Below are positions 22,037-35,836 of a stretch of DNA of 35,849 nucleotides, piece after piece (the stretch's first letter is position 1; each line of letters opens with the position of its first letter). Under the pieces are notes generated by a model. It had not been told where the DNA came from, ran no database searches, and saw only the letters and a program-made list of their open reading frames with translations. Made by a program: the position numbers and the translations under genes. The stretch is from a virus. The stretch covers positions 1-35,849 of IMG/VR virus record IMGVR_UViG_3300028739_000015; one strand, given 5' to 3'.

Positions 22037-22137
22037 AGACAACGCATGCGTTGTCTCACATAAAAGCGCATGCATTGTCTCACATAAAAACGCATGCGTT
22101 GTCTCACATAAAAACGCATGCGTTGTCTCGCTTACAT
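22037..22137. repeat. Family A palindrome in four 24-bp tandem units
   Basis: CGCATGC recurs at 22043, 22067, 22091 and 22115, exactly 24 bases apart. Each unit carries CGCATGCGTTGTCTC (unit 2 with one change) followed by ACATAAAA. The first unit, with AGACAA on its left, is a full palindrome. The array fills the gap between the portal-MuF stop and the gpG-like gene. Confidence 0.9.
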
Positions 22138-25803: not shown

Positions 25804-26267
25804 TTAAACCTATCTCTAAATTTTTGCAATCCATCATTGTCCCCTTCCAAGGGGACGAGCGTAGCGGAGGGGTTTTCTTCTTGTTTTATCTCCCCATACC
25901 TTTCATTTATCCATTCATTCAGCTTATCAACTGTCTTATTGCTCACCTCGCAATGATACTTGTATTTTCCGAAGTCAATAACCGTTTTTGAAACAATACC
26001 ACCCATGCAGGAAAAACTATTGAAAAACACTCTGTAATGCATCAAATCCATGCCACTTGTCCGCATGTCCCGAAACAACTTACCAACTGAAAGCAGAACT
26101 CCTGAGGGGCTATCTACTGCATTATTCCATCCCATAAACTTCCATTCCTTAGGAACTACCAGTTTTTCAAAGAAATCATTGCATAACCGGTTAAGTTCCT
26201 CAGCCGTTTTAGCCTCTTCGCGTCCCCAAGTACCTTTACTTCTCGGTTGGTAATGTTGTTCTACCAT
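25800..26267 (-). CDS. Phage protein of unknown function with family B repeat near its end
   Basis: 155 residues. Centre with Trp/Cys/Phe-rich segments (KEWKFMGWNNAVDSPSGVL, YRVFFNSFSCMGGIV). The C-terminal NPSATLVPLEGDNDG is encoded by a family B repeat (25839-25873), read antisense. Overlaps the methyltransferase-like gene by 32 bases and the next gene by 4 bases. No family recognised. Confidence 0.6.
   Translation of the reverse strand: MVEQHYQPRSKGTWGREEAKTAEELNRLCNDFFEKLVVPKEWKFMGWNNAVDSPSGVLLSVGKLFRDMRTSGMDLMHYRVFFNSFSCMGGIVSKTVIDFGKYKYHCEVSNKTVDKLNEWINERYGEIKQEENPSATLVPLEGDNDGLQKFRDRFK
25839..25873. repeat. Dispersed repeat, family B, third copy
   Basis: GTCCCCTTCCAAGGGGAC, then GAGCGTAGCGGAGGGGTT. 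Lies 115 bases from the second copy. Confidence 0.85.
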
Positions 26268-27480
26268 ATCTGAAACTTGTAAAGTGGATACATGCCATTG
26301 GTTTTGTCAGATCATATTTACCTTTTTCAAACCAATCTCTAAAATCCCTTTGGGATAACCCGTCATTTTCAGCAGTCAGGTAAAACGGAAAGTCGCGAAA
26401 TATCCCCCCTTCACACTTAATGGCCATACCGTCATAAGGCTGTTCAAATTCCGATTGATAAATAGCCTCCTGAACTCCTACACCGCTATCTTTATCCAAT
26501 CGAGCAAACTCTATTTGCTTATTTCCTTTCACATATTTGCCAAGTGTGTGATACTTCAAAACTATCACGGCATCACCGGCCAACACTGCGTCAATTCGTT
26601 TTTTCCAAACAGAAAAATTCCCACGGAAAGTATGAATTTTCGGATCACAACAATGAAATTTTGTAAGATTGAAGTTTGACACTTTTTCTATTTCATTATC
26701 AGAAAGAAGTCCAAATGGTATTATTCCCGAAAGTATTTTCTCTACAAAATATGTCGGCTCTCCTTTTTGCGGGTGATATGCCGGAAATGTCCGACTAACC
26801 ATTATCACGTATGTTTTGATTTTGTTTTTCATTATGAATATAATTATAAATTTACCCCCCCATTGAATTGCAATAGCTCTTGCTAAACCTGTTGGAGTTT
26901 TACTTCTTTCATGACCTTTACCTTTTCCGAGTTTTCCAAACTTACTGTATTTAGATGTGCCTGATTTTGTTTTACTCGATTTGTAAATTATATATTCAGG
27001 TTCGACTGATGTTTTTTTCTCAAATAAATTATCCGATAAATTATAATATAACTTTGGAAGATTCTTAAGCCATAAGCAGGTTGATTTTTGATATGGGTCT
27101 CCAAAATAATACGGTTGAACAATTTGATCTGGCTTTCGATAAATAGTTGACATTATTCCAATTGGATTTTCAATTGCAATTTTTTCAACCGGAGCATTTA
27201 CCACTTTCATGAAAAAATCAATTGAAGCTTGTTGCCTTCCATCTGCAATTTTTTCCTCAAAACTTCCCGATCCAGAAACTGCTAAATCTGTACATGGAGG
27301 AAAAAATATACCTACATCTGGTTTTATTAATTCTATAGCCTCAAAAACATCCATCTTCAAATGCCATTCAGGATGCCCTCCTGAGCAATCGATAATGTCA
27401 TTTGAATATGCCTGAATTCCTAATTTCCGGAGTTCAATACAAACCGCTTGTGATTCTTCGCATCCAATTAAGAACGTCAT
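26236..27480 (-). CDS. Cytosine-methyltransferase-like protein fused to a second phage domain
   Basis: 414 residues in one frame. Residues 1 to about 207 look like a small C5-methyltransferase relative: FLIGCEESQAV (motif I-like), IFFPPCTDLAVSG (motif IV, catalytic Cys in PPC) and IAIENPIG (motif VI, ENV-like). The target recognition domain is short, so activity is uncertain. After IAIQWGGKF the frame runs on through IIIFI into MKNKIKTYVIMVSRTFP, which has its own ATG at 26832 and looks like the normal start of a separate 198-residue gene (ASCH/PUA-like style, KIHTFRGNFSVWKKRI). The join goes through a G7 tract (26855-26861): one more G would give TGG GGG GGG TAA and end the first protein. 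So this is a fusion by tract change, phase variation, or a sequence error. Confidence 0.65.
   Translation of the reverse strand: MTFLIGCEESQAVCIELRKLGIQAYSNDIIDCSGGHPEWHLKMDVFEAIELIKPDVGIFFPPCTDLAVSGSGSFEEKIADGRQQASIDFFMKVVNAPVEKIAIENPIGIMSTIYRKPDQIVQPYYFGDPYQKSTCLWLKNLPKLYYNLSDNLFEKKTSVEPEYIIYKSSKTKSGTSKYSKFGKLGKGKGHERSKTPTGLARAIAIQWGGKFIIIFIMKNKIKTYVIMVSRTFPAYHPQKGEPTYFVEKILSGIIPFGLLSDNEIEKVSNFNLTKFHCCDPKIHTFRGNFSVWKKRIDAVLAGDAVIVLKYHTLGKYVKGNKQIEFARLDKDSGVGVQEAIYQSEFEQPYDGMAIKCEGGIFRDFPFYLTAENDGLSQRDFRDWFEKGKYDLTKPMACIHFTSFRYGRTTLPTEK
26855..26861 (-). repeat. G7 homopolymer at a gene fusion point
   Basis: Seven G on the minus strand, between the methyltransferase-like domain and the second domain. 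Eight G would place TAA directly after the tract and separate the genes. Confidence 0.8.
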
Positions 27481-27481
27481 A

Positions 27482-27799
27482 TCATGTAAAATAAAATGTT
27501 TTACCCGATCCGCTGCCGAATCGTTGTTGTTTAATGATTGTTGTAAACGGAAGATCGTTTTTGTTTATCTGTTCAAGTGCCTGTTTTATGGGGGTAGCAT
27601 TCGTAAAAAACTTGCATTCCCTGTCTTCGTACTTTACTTTCAAAATATACCGCCCATCTCCATGCGCTGTCTTTACGTTAGCTTCAAAGTCCAGCACTTG
27701 TATTTCGACGTTTATTACATCTTGTATAGAAATTACCGGAACATTGAATATATTTTTATCTTCAGGCGGCTTTACACCCAAATCAGAGAACTTTTTCAT
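27482..27799 (-). CDS. Small protein overlapping the DGR reverse transcriptase gene (possible accessory)
   Basis: 105 residues. The start overlaps the reverse transcriptase end by 17 bases, so translation is probably coupled. Beta-rich core (VINVEIQVLDFEANVKTA, GRYILKVKYEDRECKFFTN) and a basic Gly-rich tail (KQQRFGSGSGKTFYFT), which could suit nucleic-acid binding (OB-fold style), but no family is recognised. No Avd-type four-helix accessory protein is seen in the cassette, so this is the nearest candidate for one. It may equally be an unrelated early protein. Confidence 0.55.
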   Translation of the reverse strand: MKKFSDLGVKPPEDKNIFNVPVISIQDVINVEIQVLDFEANVKTAHGDGRYILKVKYEDRECKFFTNATPIKQALEQINKNDLPFTTIIKQQRFGSGSGKTFYFT

Positions 27800-28766
27800 T
27801 CAGTACTTTTTTAAGTAGATGCTTCGAGTCACAATGTTTTGCCCAACCCAACCAGGGAGCTATTTGCATCCGGTAACTTTTCGCATCAATATCCTTTTTA
27901 TTCAACTTTGCAGCCTTTCTGCAAAGCCGTTTTTTAATCGATTTACGCATTAATATGTGTGTATGATAGAATTTATAACCCACGAAGTCAATACCGCGAG
28001 AATCAACCGGAAATACTTGATAATTGCCTTTTAATTGTATGTTTAATCTATCCGTAAGATAATCGTTGATATCAACCAGTAAACCGTGTAAATATGGCTT
28101 ATCAGGTGCCAGTATCACCATATCATCAGCATATCGGTAGTAATACTTTACTTGCTTAGATTCTTTCAACCAATGATCAAAATAACTCAGATACAGGTTG
28201 GCGAAAAACTGACTCAGATAGTTTCCTATCGGAACACCAGGAGCAGAATCAATAATCAGATCAAGCAATTCAAGCAACCGGTTATCTTTTACCTTCAGTC
28301 GGATAATGCTTTTCAGTACATCATGGTCAATACTCGTATAAAACTTTCTTACGTCCAATTTCAGGCAGAACTGTGTATTTTCAACGTCTTTTAAATCCCG
28401 TTTAATCGCTTTTAAAACGGCATGAATTCCGCGCCCCTTGATACAGCTGTATGTCTGCTGAATGAAAATACTTGTCCATATTGGCTCCATTACATTCATA
28501 ATGGCATGGTGAACCACTCTGTCCCGAAATGGTAACCGGTAAATCTCGCGTTCTTTCGGATCGTAAATGGTAAATATGCTATATTCCGAAGTCCGGTAAG
28601 TTCCGTTTATCAATTCATCCTGTAGCTGTCTCATGTTGCTTTCCAACTCTTTTTCAAAGAGCCGAACACCATATGTATGCGCTTTACCCTTTCTGGCTTT
28701 TTCGTAAGCGAGAACCATATTATCCTCGCTGCATACCTGAGCATATAAGTTATTGTATCGTTTCAT
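27783..28766 (-). CDS. DGR reverse transcriptase
   Basis: 327 residues. Visible RT motifs: LKLDVRKFYTSIDH (motif A, catalytic Asp), PIGNYLSQFFANLY (about 178-191), which is the IGxxxSQ form seen in diversity-generating retroelements instead of the QGxxxSP of retrons and group II introns, and RYADDMVILAP (YADD, about 211-214). No maturase, endonuclease or X domain follows. The template repeat lies just upstream of the start (28871-28950) and two variable genes lie before it. The enzyme copies the TR RNA with errors at adenines; the cDNA replaces VR. Confidence 0.95.
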   Translation of the reverse strand: MKRYNNLYAQVCSEDNMVLAYEKARKGKAHTYGVRLFEKELESNMRQLQDELINGTYRTSEYSIFTIYDPKEREIYRLPFRDRVVHHAIMNVMEPIWTSIFIQQTYSCIKGRGIHAVLKAIKRDLKDVENTQFCLKLDVRKFYTSIDHDVLKSIIRLKVKDNRLLELLDLIIDSAPGVPIGNYLSQFFANLYLSYFDHWLKESKQVKYYYRYADDMVILAPDKPYLHGLLVDINDYLTDRLNIQLKGNYQVFPVDSRGIDFVGYKFYHTHILMRKSIKKRLCRKAAKLNKKDIDAKSYRMQIAPWLGWAKHCDSKHLLKKVLNEKVL

Positions 28767-28870
28767 TTCTTTGCTTTTCGTTTGGAGCTTTCGGTTTCCT
28801 TACCAGCACCTTTTGAAGTTTGTTATTTTTTTGCCAAGTGGCAGGGCCTTTATCCTTGTATCTTTATTTC

Positions 28871-28950
28871 GCATAGGTGCGAGGTGTTACCTGCATTCGC
28901 ATTCGAGTTATCGTAATTCGTATCGTTGAAAACGAAACCACTGGAAGACA
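28871..28950 (-). repeat. DGR template repeat (TR)
   Basis: 80 bases between VR gene 1 and the reverse transcriptase gene. Its minus strand is the sense strand. Compared with VR1 it differs at 14 positions, with VR2 at 20, all at T on the plus strand (A in sense), of 21 such positions. In the VR frame it reads through codons rich in AAC and AAT (NDTNYDNSNANAGNTSHLC), as expected for A-targeted diversification. The 16-base sense 3' end CACCTCGCACCTATGC is the likely IMH*. Confidence 0.97.
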
Positions 28951-28979
28951 ACCTCACAAAGACAAACAGCCTGTTTTAT

Positions 28980-29360
28980 TTACTTCAGAATGATTCTGCT
29001 GTACACTTCGGTAAATTGTCGCCCTGCATATTCTGCCATTTCCTCAGATGGAAAGCAAAGGCGCGAGGCGCAACCCGCATTCGCATACGAGCAATCGAAA
29101 TACGTACCGCTGAAAACGAAACCACCGGAAGACACTTTAAACCAAGGATACCACTTGTATTGATCAGTATCATTCCAATCGGCCTTCCAATCTCCAACTA
29201 ACGCTCTGGTGATTACTACCGCTTCATACACTGATTTGAAATATTCGCGAAGCTCTTCAGGTACTTCGTTGAATTCAGGTGTTGCAGGCATACCTGTTAC
29301 GTTCAAAGCATCTTCTACTGTTTTGATGCTTTCCATTTGTGTTGCTTCTACTTTTTCCAT
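28980..29360 (-). CDS. DGR target protein 1 (variable C-terminal domain)
   Basis: 126 residues. The N-terminal part is helical (IKTVEDALNVTG, VPEELREYFKSVYEAVVITRAL). The shared core DTDQYKWYPWFKVSSGGFVF begins the variable domain. VR1 encodes residues from SSGGFVF to ASRLC, with varied residues S, G, Y, F, C, Y, C. It ends EEMAEYAGRQFTEVYSRIILK. The pattern matches small Bacteroidota DGR targets thought to have a C-type-lectin-like fold. No signal peptide or membrane segment. It ends 29 bases before the TR. Function unknown; ligand binding is inferred from the DGR. Confidence 0.9.
   Translation of the reverse strand: MEKVEATQMESIKTVEDALNVTGMPATPEFNEVPEELREYFKSVYEAVVITRALVGDWKADWNDTDQYKWYPWFKVSSGGFVFSGTYFDCSYANAGCASRLCFPSEEMAEYAGRQFTEVYSRIILK
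29055..29134 (-). repeat. DGR variable repeat 1 (VR1)
   Basis: 80 bases aligned without gaps to the TR; 14 differences, all at TR adenines. The sense 3' 16 bases CGCCTCGCGCCTTTGC (29055-29070) are identical in VR2 and differ from the TR only at three adenines: the likely IMH. Confidence 0.97.
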
Positions 29361-29389
29361 GTGTTCAAAATTGTTTGCATTTAGGCTGA

Positions 29390-29860
29390 TTATTTAATAA
29401 AATCTGAATATAATTGTAAGAATTGTTTACCTGCATAAGTGGCTAATTCGTCACTCTTAAAGCAAAGGCGCGAGGCGAAACCCGCAAGCGCAGCCGAGAG
29501 AACGCAAAACGCATCGCCGAAAACGAAACCACCGGAAGACACTTTAAACCAAGGATACCACTTGTATTGATCAGTGTTCAGCATGTCAGGTTTCCATCCT
29601 TCATTCAATGCGCGTGTGATAGTTTTGATTTTCCGATACGTTATTTCATCATCGGTAAAACTAAGTAGTTTGAAAATAGATTCGTCTAGTGGCTTTTCGC
29701 CCAGCTCTAAACAGGCATCTTCGTAGGTTTTAACTCTATCCATAATGCTTTCGGAAAAAAAAGCCTTTCCAAAAGTATCTTCAAGTGCTACCTTGAATTC
29801 CGGAGTTGCATCCTTGTACAACTTCCTTGCATTTTGTTCTGAAATTTGTAATGTTTTCAT
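29390..29860 (-). CDS. DGR target protein 2 (variable C-terminal domain)
   Basis: 156 residues when started at MKTLQISEQNARKLYKDATP (29860); the open frame extends upstream to 29947 but there overlaps the DUF4494-like gene. The N-terminal domain (FKVALEDTFGKAFFSESIMD, RVKTYEDACLELGEKPLDE) is longer than in target 1. The core NTDQYKWYPWFKVSSGGFVF is nearly identical to target 1. VR2 encodes GDAFCVLSAALAGFASRLC, very different from VR1. It ends DELATYAGKQFLQLYSDFIK. It lies upstream of target 1 in the same operon, sharing the TR. Confidence 0.88.
   Translation of the reverse strand: MKTLQISEQNARKLYKDATPEFKVALEDTFGKAFFSESIMDRVKTYEDACLELGEKPLDESIFKLLSFTDDEITYRKIKTITRALNEGWKPDMLNTDQYKWYPWFKVSSGGFVFGDAFCVLSAALAGFASRLCFKSDELATYAGKQFLQLYSDFIK
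29462..29541 (-). repeat. DGR variable repeat 2 (VR2)
   Basis: 80 bases aligned without gaps to the TR; 20 differences at 20 of 21 TR adenines and none elsewhere. The next 35 bases beyond the VR on its sense 5' side (29542-29576) are identical to those beyond VR1. Confidence 0.97.
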
Positions 29861-29909: not shown

Positions 29910-30353
29910 TTAAGCAGCCTTATCATCGGCATCATATTTAAACACATCCATAATGAGGGTCTCCGTAATAGCAGCTATTTCATAGTCTGCCATTGACCCT
30001 TTCATTCCTTCCACTACGCCTGCATTAGCCTCTTTGGTGTCATTAGCCTGAACTAGCATGCTAACGGCTGTTCTGCGTTCAACACCCTTATCTTCATCCA
30101 AGCAGATAAACATCACTTTTGCGCGATACCATTTATCTCCATTTTCATTGAAGAACATTTCGTTTATCTTTGCCCTACGAATAGCTGTTACTGTGAATTC
30201 ACCACTAATAAACGGTCTCAGTTCCTCAATAATTCTTGTCTCAGCTTCAGTAAATGACAGTGCATCTACTAAATACGTTTCACTCACTTTTACGATTTTA
30301 CCCTCTTCGCCGGTTTTTTCGTACTTAATTTTACACTCGAACCAATTATGCAT
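29910..30353 (-). CDS. DUF4494-like early phage protein
   Basis: 147 residues. WFECKIKYEKTGEEGKIVKVSETYLVDALSFTEAETRIIEELRPFISGEFTVTAIRRAKINEM (quoted here in parts: WFECKIKYEKTGEEGK, ETYLVDALSFTEAETRI, FISGEFTVTAIRRA) is the recognisable pattern of the DUF4494 family, common in Bacteroidota mobile elements. No function known. It is the gene before the DGR targets in the early operon. The C terminus is acidic. Confidence 0.8.
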   Translation of the reverse strand: MHNWFECKIKYEKTGEEGKIVKVSETYLVDALSFTEAETRIIEELRPFISGEFTVTAIRRAKINEMFFNENGDKWYRAKVMFICLDEDKGVERRTAVSMLVQANDTKEANAGVVEGMKGSMADYEIAAITETLIMDVFKYDADDKAA

Positions 30354-32779: not shown

Positions 32780-33646
32780 TTAATTTATTCCCTTTTCTTT
32801 GTTTCTTTTCGACCGCTTGTACGATTGGACTTTCTTCTTTACCCTTCGCAAATCACCTTCGCTGTCCTCAATTATTTCGCTGATTATTTTATTCTCCGAA
32901 ATTCCGTTAGCCACACAAATGGATGTAATGTCGTTGGCTGTTATTCCGGTTAGTTCAATGAACTTTCTGCCCAACCGGCTCCAAATTTCCCTGAATCCCT
33001 TTTTGTTCTTTGCTACTCCATTTTCAATACGTTTTTTGAAATAAGATGTTGAAGTCAATATGATGGAGCAATAGTCTTCTAATTCGTTATAGAGAGTTAT
33101 GAAGAAATAAAGCAGTTCGTCCGACAGTTTATCAACCTCATCAATGTAGATAATCGGGTCCACCTGACGCTTAAGCGTTGCTATGATTTCCTGCATCATT
33201 CGGTTTATGTTCATCCCGTCGGGTTCTTTGCCTAGCGACTGCAATAATTCAATAGCAAATTGCTTTTTATTCCAGTACTCGGAACATTTCAGCAGGTAGG
33301 AGTTTTTTTCTTTCGAAATAAGTTTCAAAAACTCAGTTTTACCAGTTCCGGCATCACCAATCACCGAACTGACCAAATGATTTTCTTTGGAGTCAGTCAA
33401 AATCATTTTCAACTGGCGCGTAGTGCTTATTTCGGCATAAATCCACTTTTCAAACTGATGACCTATTTGAGCGGCCACATTGCGCCACATATCATCATTT
33501 ATAAGCTCCCAATTTTCATTCATCATCTGGCTTAAGGTAGCCGAACTTACGTTTTTCAATGAATTAGCCGCTTTGTTTTGGCTTCCGTATCGGTCTATGT
33601 ATGCACTAAGCGTCTCTGTGATTTGTTTTTTCTGAATAGTTTCCAT
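32780..33646 (-). CDS. MuB-like transposition ATPase
   Basis: 288 residues. The N-terminal region has a small helix-turn-helix (SQNKAANSLKNVSSATLSQM, about 18-38), followed by an AAA+ domain with Walker A VIGDAGTGKTEFLKL (about 94-108) and Walker B DPIIYIDEVDKLSDEL (about 165-180). The C-terminal part is basic (RRVKKKVQSYKRSKRNKEKG). MuB binds target DNA, activates the transposase and gives target immunity. Adjacent to MuA through one small gene, the usual order. Confidence 0.88.
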   Translation of the reverse strand: METIQKKQITETLSAYIDRYGSQNKAANSLKNVSSATLSQMMNENWELINDDMWRNVAAQIGHQFEKWIYAEISTTRQLKMILTDSKENHLVSSVIGDAGTGKTEFLKLISKEKNSYLLKCSEYWNKKQFAIELLQSLGKEPDGMNINRMMQEIIATLKRQVDPIIYIDEVDKLSDELLYFFITLYNELEDYCSIILTSTSYFKKRIENGVAKNKKGFREIWSRLGRKFIELTGITANDITSICVANGISENKIISEIIEDSEGDLRRVKKKVQSYKRSKRNKEKGIN

Positions 33647-33868: not shown

Positions 33869-35836
33869 TTAGTAGATATTATATATGTCTAATTCGTTTT
33901 GCTCTTCATCCGGAACGTCTACGGCAGTCGCTTTCAGCTTTTTTGTATTCGATCTGCCTTCGTTTCTGTTGTTCTTATGCTGCCCCTTAGAGTCCGTTAA
34001 GCAGAATTTCTGAAGCGTATCGTTTTGAAGTAATACAGGCATGATATCAGCCATGTTCTGTATATTTTGTGCTCTAAAGTCTGATACCTGCTTTTCAAGA
34101 CTGGCGTTGAACTCTCGTACCCGCTGTATTTCGCCACTGTCACCCGGCTTTCTGTCTTTCAGTGCCATTGGTTGCACATATACCTTTTCAAGCAAAAACC
34201 GGTGTGTTTTATCTTCGCTAACCGCTAACACCTTATCCATATTTGTCGGGTCAAAGTATATGTCAAATTTCAAGTGATCGTAATTCCGGAAATTTGGATT
34301 CCAACACTCCCACGTGTGTTTTATTCCGTTGATTGTTTTGTGTAACCCATCACTTTCACGTTGGTTAGGCTTTCCTTTTGTTTCTCCGAATGTGTACAGG
34401 TAGTTTTCTATGGACATTTCTAGCTTATTATCTTCCGCCGTAGCTTCCCACAACTTCATATATTCATCTATCTTTTTTGCCCTTGCTTTTTCAATGATCT
34501 GAACAACCTGGGCACACGCACCTGCATAATCGGGAAATTCATTCTTGTATTTGTTCAGATATTCCGTATTTGCCTGCTTATCTTTAGCAGAGGTGATACC
34601 GTAACCGCTCCAGTTCTTTTCGTATTGGCAATAATCGTGATTAATGCTTTTAAAATAAGGTTCAATAACCTTTGCTTTTGCGTTCTTTGCGCGGGCTGGA
34701 GTGCTCAGTTCTGATACAGCCTCGTAAAATGGAGTCATTTTTTTTATAGCATATCGGTCACTCTGTATCTGGTGTGTCCGGTACATCTTTCCAAACAGTT
34801 GCGCTGTGTGGCATTCTGCATTCCGTAGAGCCATTGTAATCAACTCCGGAGTTTCATGGGTACCTATTGCATAACCAATGATATATTTTACTGACGGGTC
34901 AAGAACCACAACCACTGTTGGCCGGTGATGATAGGTTGTTTTGCCATTTTCAAACTGCTGAAACAATAGTTCTACATCCCAACCATCCAATGTCCAGTAA
35001 TAAAGTGGACAAGTAGGGGAAGATCGTTTCACCTGCATTGTTTTTTTGTTTCTGAATTCAACAGCTCCGCGTCGTCCGGCGAATATTTGTGTTGCATATT
35101 TCTTTCTCCACTTGGCCACAGCAGCACCGGTTATTTTATCCCACTGTAAAGTGGATGCTATCATATTATACAATCCGGCTACCTGTTCGTTATCCAAATT
35201 GCGCGGATCAGCCAGTAATTCATTTAGAATAGATTGTTTTTGATCATCATTCACTTTGGCAGAATTCTTATTGCAGAAGTTACGATGTATCAAACATCCG
35301 TATCCCTCTTTCAGGTACTGTTTGTATTTTTCATGTAGTCTACGATCGTTGCTTGGCAGCGTATGAGGGTATTCCTTTCGGTCTAGGTCCATCACTCGTT
35401 TGGCTATGCCATTCCAAATACCTGTTGTAGTTCCGCCCAAAGCCCTGCGCATCGTTACGCGGTCAGAAATCAAACTATGAATAGCATTCAATACAATAGC
35501 ATTCGTGTAGTATTCCTTTACCACGTTGTTATCCTCCGATGCCGGAAGGTATCTGTCCGGCTCAACTTCATAGCTGCTGTAAAACTCCATCGCTGCCGAA
35601 TCCTGAATAATCAATTGTTGAAGTACATTCGTTATGGTCTTTTTAGTGATATCACCAAACTCCATTTCTATTTTCTTCCGAAAGCGCTCAGGCATGGTTT
35701 TGTAGTCAATCAATGCAGGAGTACCATAGCATCCCCGCCTGATCACATTAATTTGTTTCCTTACTGTTAGCTTTCTATATGTATCTTCACTCATTATGCC
35801 ATTATCAATAAGGCTTCTTGACTGAATTGCCAACAT
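33869..35836 (-). CDS. Mu-like DDE transposase (MuA)
   Basis: 655 residues. The N-terminal part is a DNA-binding region (TVRKQINVIRRGCYG, TPALIDYKTMPERFRKKIE). The catalytic domain has YYWTLDGWDVELLF (first Asp, about 280), HQIQSDRYAIKK (second Asp, about 357) and VIEPYFKSINHDYCQYEKN (Glu, about 392), with VVVVLDPSVKYIIGYAIG between. The C-terminal basic and acidic tail should bind MuB and the helper proteins. It joins phage ends to target DNA for integration and replication. The start is 13 bases from the window end, so the operator/repressor region and prophage left end are outside. Confidence 0.95.
   Translation of the reverse strand: MLAIQSRSLIDNGIMSEDTYRKLTVRKQINVIRRGCYGTPALIDYKTMPERFRKKIEMEFGDITKKTITNVLQQLIIQDSAAMEFYSSYEVEPDRYLPASEDNNVVKEYYTNAIVLNAIHSLISDRVTMRRALGGTTTGIWNGIAKRVMDLDRKEYPHTLPSNDRRLHEKYKQYLKEGYGCLIHRNFCNKNSAKVNDDQKQSILNELLADPRNLDNEQVAGLYNMIASTLQWDKITGAAVAKWRKKYATQIFAGRRGAVEFRNKKTMQVKRSSPTCPLYYWTLDGWDVELLFQQFENGKTTYHHRPTVVVVLDPSVKYIIGYAIGTHETPELITMALRNAECHTAQLFGKMYRTHQIQSDRYAIKKMTPFYEAVSELSTPARAKNAKAKVIEPYFKSINHDYCQYEKNWSGYGITSAKDKQANTEYLNKYKNEFPDYAGACAQVVQIIEKARAKKIDEYMKLWEATAEDNKLEMSIENYLYTFGETKGKPNQRESDGLHKTINGIKHTWECWNPNFRNYDHLKFDIYFDPTNMDKVLAVSEDKTHRFLLEKVYVQPMALKDRKPGDSGEIQRVREFNASLEKQVSDFRAQNIQNMADIMPVLLQNDTLQKFCLTDSKGQHKNNRNEGRSNTKKLKATAVDVPDEEQNELDIYNIY

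Follow-up and report, generated by a model that had tools for sequence, protein, structure and literature searches.

Receptor switching is the usual explanation for DGRs in phages. In Quimbyvirus, the DGR targets were reported to be C-type lectins, and a second target is located in a non-structural, defence-related neighbourhood near methyltransferases (Benler et al. 2021, PMC8008677). LoVEphage appears to belong to the same group, as suggested by its gene content and by the B. dorei prophage CP011531, which is named in both papers. Moreover, according to a 2025 paper, four species of gut prophages have a second, distal VR in the vicinity of counter-defence genes (PMC12629997). By its own statement, the large DGR survey of Roux et al. 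could not reach remote targets (PMC8144416), and this class of DGRs may therefore be under-counted. Regarding accessory proteins, Avd is usual but does not occur in every DGR, and HRDC and MSL are also known (PMC10053308). Here we describe a phage DGR that probably has two early, non-structural targets and the small domain P105 as the partner of its reverse transcriptase (RT).

The cassette and its place in the phage genome

The window, i.e. the whole stretch of DNA that was analysed, is an entire IMG/VR virus record of 35,849 bases. Judged by its genes for a MuA-like transposase and a MuB-like ATPase, the phage is a Mu-like transposable phage of Bacteroidales. The cassette and its neighbourhood comprise the following features:

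33869..35836, minus strand, MuA-like transposase (phrog_310, 6.2e-33), head of the early block; context only
32780..33646, minus strand, MuB-like transposition protein (phrog_296, 1.3e-46), early block; context only
29910..30353, minus strand, DUF4494 gene, early-block neighbour; context, outside the DGR
29390..29860, minus strand, target gene T2, 156 aa, ATG at 29860 (phrog_11581, 1.1e-32)
29462..29541, minus strand, VR2 within T2, IMH-like end at 29462-29483
28980..29360, minus strand, target gene T1, 126 aa (phrog_11581, 2e-17)
29055..29134, minus strand, VR1 within T1, IMH-like end at 29055-29076
28871..28950, minus strand, TR with 21 sense adenines, IMH*-like 3' end at 28871-28892
28767..28848, minus strand, RT-17 structured RNA (RF03020), exactly between TR and RT; Rfam covariance model 46.4 bits, gathering score 40.4
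27783..28766, minus strand, DGR-type reverse transcriptase, 327 aa (RVT_1, 9e-15; phrog_1423, 1.6e-131)
27482..27799, minus strand, P105, 105-residue domain overlapping the 3' end of the RT gene (phrog_19665, profile match 9.4e-29)

On the minus strand, the early block consists, in this order, of the genes for the MuA-like transposase, the MuB-like protein, DUF3164 and DUF4494 and of the DGR cassette, which is itself arranged as T2, T1, TR, RT and P105. The terminase and portal genes are located on the plus strand at 17-22 kb of the window and the genes for the tape measure and tail proteins at 1-11 kb, so the DGR sits apart from the structural genes. The initial annotation had described a complete DGR in the interval 28871-29541. 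TR, two VRs and a DGR-type RT are indeed present and the interval holds the TR and both VRs, but it omits the RT and most of both target genes; furthermore, no Avd was found with a model that recognises its controls, and P105 had been overlooked. That annotation likewise did not mention that the targets are early and not tail proteins.

At the left end of the window, a tRNA gene (144-214) and a lipoprotein-like ORF (758-1354) could represent the host flank of an integrated Mu-like phage. Direct 24-bp copies of a AACGCATGCGTTGTCTCACATAAA-type repeat are present at 22041-22134, immediately beyond the portal gene. Downstream of P105, the ORF at 26236-27480 joins a DNA-methyltransferase-like part (phrog_757) to a second part (phrog_8581), and several relatives have only the phrog_8581 part.

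TR, VR1 and VR2 can be aligned without gaps over 80 bases. VR1 differs from the TR at 14 positions (8 A>G and 6 A>T) and VR2 at 20 positions (9 A>G, 8 A>T and 3 A>C), and all differences are found at TR adenines and none at the 59 other positions, just as had been claimed. The hypergeometric chance of this restriction to adenines is 8e-11 for VR1 and 6e-18 for VR2, which rules out repeats formed by chance or by simple duplication. The TR, which is rich in AAC/AAT codons, translates as SSSGFVFNDTNYDNSNANAGNTSHLC, VR1 as SSGGFVFSGTYFDCSYANAGCASRLC and VR2 as SSGGFVFGDAFCVLSAALAGFASRLC. Of the 21 TR adenines, five (28942, 28892, 28885, 28878 and 28874) belong to a fixed class facing one base in nearly every VR. 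The fixed and mutable classes were defined from 85 distinct VRs of relatives, and by this comparison the five sites are fixed TR/VR differences, namely IMH/IMH*-like and at the 5' boundary. The mutable core of the window comprises 16 adenines, of which VR1 is changed at 9 and VR2 at 15; the two VRs agree at only 3 of the 16.

Scanning the whole window with the TR revealed no third copy, the next best site having 29 non-A mismatches as compared with 26-30 for shuffled TRs. By the same scan, no VR was found in the 1575-aa tail protein or in any other tail or receptor-binding gene of the window, whose only VRs are those in T1 and T2 of the early block; in five long contigs of relatives, VRs outside the T genes were not detected either.

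The assignment of the RT to the DGR class by its IGxxxSQ motif was confirmed: the motif is present as IGNYLSQ, RVT_1 and phrog_1423 match, and those RTs of the best phage matches that were examined adjoin TR/VR pairs. In NCBIfam, only generic RT matches were obtained. The RT-17 RNA was found at the same place in five relatives (L007, L009, L013, L014 and L063). The folding stability of the TR-RT spacer RNA is no better than that of shuffles (z -0.15), although the Rfam model matches. In the crAss-like cr56_1 (W03), the RT frame (59463-60440) is interrupted by five in-frame TAG codons, as would be expected if this stop codon is reassigned in the phage.

T1 and T2 belong to one family of small proteins, phrog_11581, to which no function is assigned. 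Neither protein has a Pfam or NCBIfam match above the cut-off or a convincing PDB match. The AlphaFold2 model of T2 (mean pLDDT 84.5) is helical up to residue 86; a beta-hairpin comes next, then the VR loop, which is modelled with low confidence, and finally two helices. Searches for a known fold with Foldseek and VIA-align gave no convincing PDB match and only uncharacterised viral proteins, which implies neither a new fold nor that T is no lectin. As to a C-type lectin fold, the low confidence of the model applies to the VR loop itself, and tail-type proteins make use of this VR segment as well. About 24 residues follow the VR, which thus ends short of the very C-terminus, the usual position in DGR targets (PMC8144416).

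Relatives, distant targets and the P105 domain

With T2 as the query, 26 viral loci were obtained, and from the T alignment search the best 80 of 229 loci were taken; most relatives share the order T(1-3)-TR-RT-P105. In 103 distinct TR/VR pairs of relatives, 1470 of 2203 TR adenines were changed (822 to G, 460 to T and 188 to C) and other bases at 29 of 6050 positions (12 of the 29 in one odd locus, L118), under an alignment score that penalises non-A mismatches and thereby trims the repeat ends in favour of the pattern, whereas the window pair was counted free of that bias. The alignment of the 85 distinct VRs was anchored on conserved S-R-L codons, and in it the adenines of the mutable core take all four bases. 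Adenines with one fixed opposite base are located on the 5' side (-60, -57, -53 and -51) and on the 3' side (-10, -3, +2, +4, +7 and +8), and +6 is only T or C. Positions -10, -3, +4 and +8, fixed in nearly all VRs, represent the fixed 3' differences between VR (IMH) and TR (IMH*). At the sequence level, the 3' fixed set matches the IMH/IMH* prediction, with a putative role in priming. Position -10 (window 28892) is odd in being synonymous and in having mutable sites on its 3' side, and still it is G in 46 of 50 distinct VR pairs; this fixed G may reflect context-dependent misincorporation or selection at the DNA level. That the window element is a genuine DGR is nearly certain.

In named phages, members of phrog_11581 also match a TR that lies, with its RT, far away from them:

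cr56_1, remote T target about 54 kb from the RT, A-only match to the TR
cr60_1, remote T target about 46 kb from the RT, one non-A mismatch
LoVEphage and PV4-TP1, remote T targets about 14 kb from the RT, A-only match to the TR
Versailles, remote T target 44 kb from the RT on the linear record, A-only match to the TR

The remote targets match the phrog_11581 profile too, and the TRs of these phages also match a local VR beside the RT, mostly in an annotated tail protein. Seven further remote cases in five bacterial genomes and two viral contigs have 0-2 non-A mismatches; in G294, the two parts lie on separate contigs, and a local VR was not detected in G303. Across the crAss-like Buchavirus, LoVEphage, Versailles and other Bacteroidales phages, the distance between remote T and RT ranges from 11 to 54 kb. 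The genes near T include those for an SbcC-like ATPase, RecT, an MBL-fold hydrolase, SSB and a sliding clamp, and in the locus L110 a complete T-T-TR-RT-P105 cassette lies between the MBL gene and the SSB gene of a module of this kind. T was also found in records in which no RT was detected (Dulem virus 41 and cr109_1).

Of 45 distinct complete RTs, 42 have P105 behind them, typically with an overlap of 2-14 bases. A search starting from P105 alone yielded 54 distinct loci; 53 of these have an RT on the same strand, in 50 cases within -14 to +24 bases, and the sole locus lacking an RT starts at a contig end. P105 and RT form a single reading frame in six of the 54 loci, and P105 is located upstream of the RT in G061, G110, G259 and G303. 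Because of this strict linkage and the fusion, we infer that P105 is a likely functional partner of the RT and may take the place of Avd. In the window's record, neither PF22296, the bAvd model, nor PF05635 matched an Avd gene; PF22296 detects Avd in the BPP-1 and BalMu-1 controls and PF05635 matched no control, which makes the PF05635 half of this result weak. PF22296 also gave no match in Hankyphage, LMMB, LoVEphage, PV4-TP1, Versailles and cr56_1. P105 is not universal, since it is absent beside three cassette RTs (L026, L111 and L115) and was not detected in Buchavirus, also when TAG was read as Gln. By eye, the RT of the LMMB crAssphage seemed to have a P105-like extension, but this received no support from hhalign. 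The AlphaFold model of P105 is poor (pLDDT 44.7), and no convincing sequence relative was found in the PDB. As a second solution to Avd's job, P105 would be testable and useful for studies of the mechanism and for mutagenesis tools.

Possible roles of the targets and activity of the cassette

The adenine specificity, the fixed blocks and, for a sister phage, activity in nature were observed directly, and the following steps are proposed. The TR transcript, with the RT-17 RNA behind it, would be copied by the RT together with P105. Adenines would be misread during copying, and the VR core of both target genes would be replaced by the cDNA; the block of fixed 3' sites (IMH in the VR, IMH* in the TR) would distinguish the target from the donor. 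T1 and T2 are likely to be non-structural and early targets: judging from the observed location of their genes, these small proteins would be made early, alongside the DNA replication and recombination genes. Each of them would display a variable surface on a conserved scaffold and would bind, within the infected cell, factors that differ from host to host, e.g. defence proteins. The DGR would thereby supply the phage with a changing repertoire of counter-defence binders. We give this counter-defence role slightly less than even chances, and it is the best single guess.

T1 and T2 could instead serve ordinary tropism switching as small virion-borne lectins that sit on the tail or head and aid adsorption, their genes simply lying apart from those for the tail. 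Among the known targets of phage DGRs, tail receptor-binding proteins predominate (PMC8144416, PMC10743442), and LoVEphage, Versailles and Buchavirus use one TR for a tail-type protein and a T protein. Furthermore, the C-terminal part of T weakly matches the tail family phrog_5302 through the VR region. T could be a virion component that is expressed from an early operon, and a surface-ligand role is possible because, in other phages, one TR serves both the VR part of T and tail proteins. However, unrelated phages have their T genes in replication/recombination or early blocks, frequently at a distance of 11-54 kb from the RT and its tail-type target, the N-terminal part of T is helical in the predicted model and has no virion-family match, and T is spread over groups as different as Mu-like phages, crAss-like phages, LoVEphage and Versailles. 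We therefore regard tropism switching as rather unlikely. The location of T early and beside recombination and methylation genes, together with the confinement of the variation to one loop, would also fit evasion in place of binding, i.e. T would be an early protein that is seen by host sensors and whose recognised surface is altered by the DGR. An AAC/AAT-rich TR and a conserved VR scaffold are, however, the design of known ligand-binding DGR targets, and evasion seems improbable to us.

Natural DGR activity was directly shown only for VR1 of the sister phage: the contigs L008 and L009 (9158 bp) differ at six bases, all of them in VR1 at TR adenines, and their TRs are identical. The contigs L073, L075 and L076, which are 99.3-99.9% identical over the aligned parts, differ in the T copies that they carry (two or three) and in the VRs of these copies. 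In the window's own phage, no VR variation was found among four contigs (the window and L002-L004), which is not a sign of activity and speaks weakly against it. The initial annotation had taken the difference between VR1 and VR2 as a sign of recent activity in both; this does not follow from such a difference. The VRs are identical in the three other contigs. A decaying DGR, with old VR differences and no current activity in the window's phage, would agree with this identity and with the broken cassettes of the relatives L018-L020 and L011/L012. On the other hand, the window has an intact RT, TR and P105 and two intact T reading frames, close relatives differ only in the VR at TR adenines, and identical contigs may share one site and time of origin. 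Decay of the window's DGR is thus quite improbable.

In L018, L019, L020 and L098, a TR-type sequence (SHLC) ends the T gene (about 3957-4352 in L018) and the TR is gone, which looks like a recombination between VR and TR that deleted the TR and hence the template of the DGR. In L011, L012 and L072, T1 is truncated, no TR was found, the RT is partial and T2 is intact; these cassettes are apparently deleted DGRs. In a Dysgonomonas genome (G001, contig C22; L063, 4133-5157), two tandem T genes encode proteins that are identical outside the VR and different inside, and this pair adjoins a third T, the RT and P105.

Comparison with known systems

A broader, still tentative proposal, to which we give somewhat less than even chances, is the following: Bacteroidota phages may share a DGR sub-type that is devoted wholly or partly to one intracellular family, an early hypervariable binder directed against variable host defences, with P105 replacing Avd. 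In such a sub-type, this binder could, equally tentatively, be the phage counterpart of the putative antigen sensors that are diversified by bacterial DGRs (PMC10907252). With only early non-structural targets in this DGR and a recurrent family in unrelated phages, directed hypermutation may serve the intracellular fight too. In the open literature, to which the search was confined, no description was found of P105, of DGRs with T targets only or of the T family as a target that several phage groups have in common.

The mtd/avd/brt system of BPP-1 resembles the window in the A-specific transfer from TR to VR, in the IMH/IMH* logic and in the class of the RT; however, its target is the tail protein Mtd, Avd is present, and P105 was not detected in its DGR region. 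Hankyphage p00 (BK010646, PMC6199706) is likewise a transposable Bacteroidales phage with a DGR and a P105 domain, but its DGR diversifies a very large protein that has a C-type lectin domain and the VR at residues 2188-2225 (PMC6199706), P105 is fused to the RT, the RNA is RT-3 and not RT-17, and the RT is only 33% identical to that of the window. The gut prophages of the 2025 paper share the idea of a distal VR away from the tail genes; target family and RT partner are unnamed in its accessible part, whereas here one target family was followed across several phage lineages (PMC12629997). The likeness to Quimbyvirus and LoVEphage lies in the diversification of a protein from a non-structural region, where LoVEphage and PV4-TP1 have a remote A-only VR of phrog_11581. 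There, the local target is of the tail type and T is the remote second one, whereas the window has two T paralogues next to the TR as its targets and no tail VR; a single frame encodes the window RT, P105 has a gene of its own and the phage is of the Mu-like type. A distant non-structural target is already known from Quimbyvirus; the targeting of T proteins only and the P105 partner are apparently new, and counter-defence is the best single guess for the role of the system.
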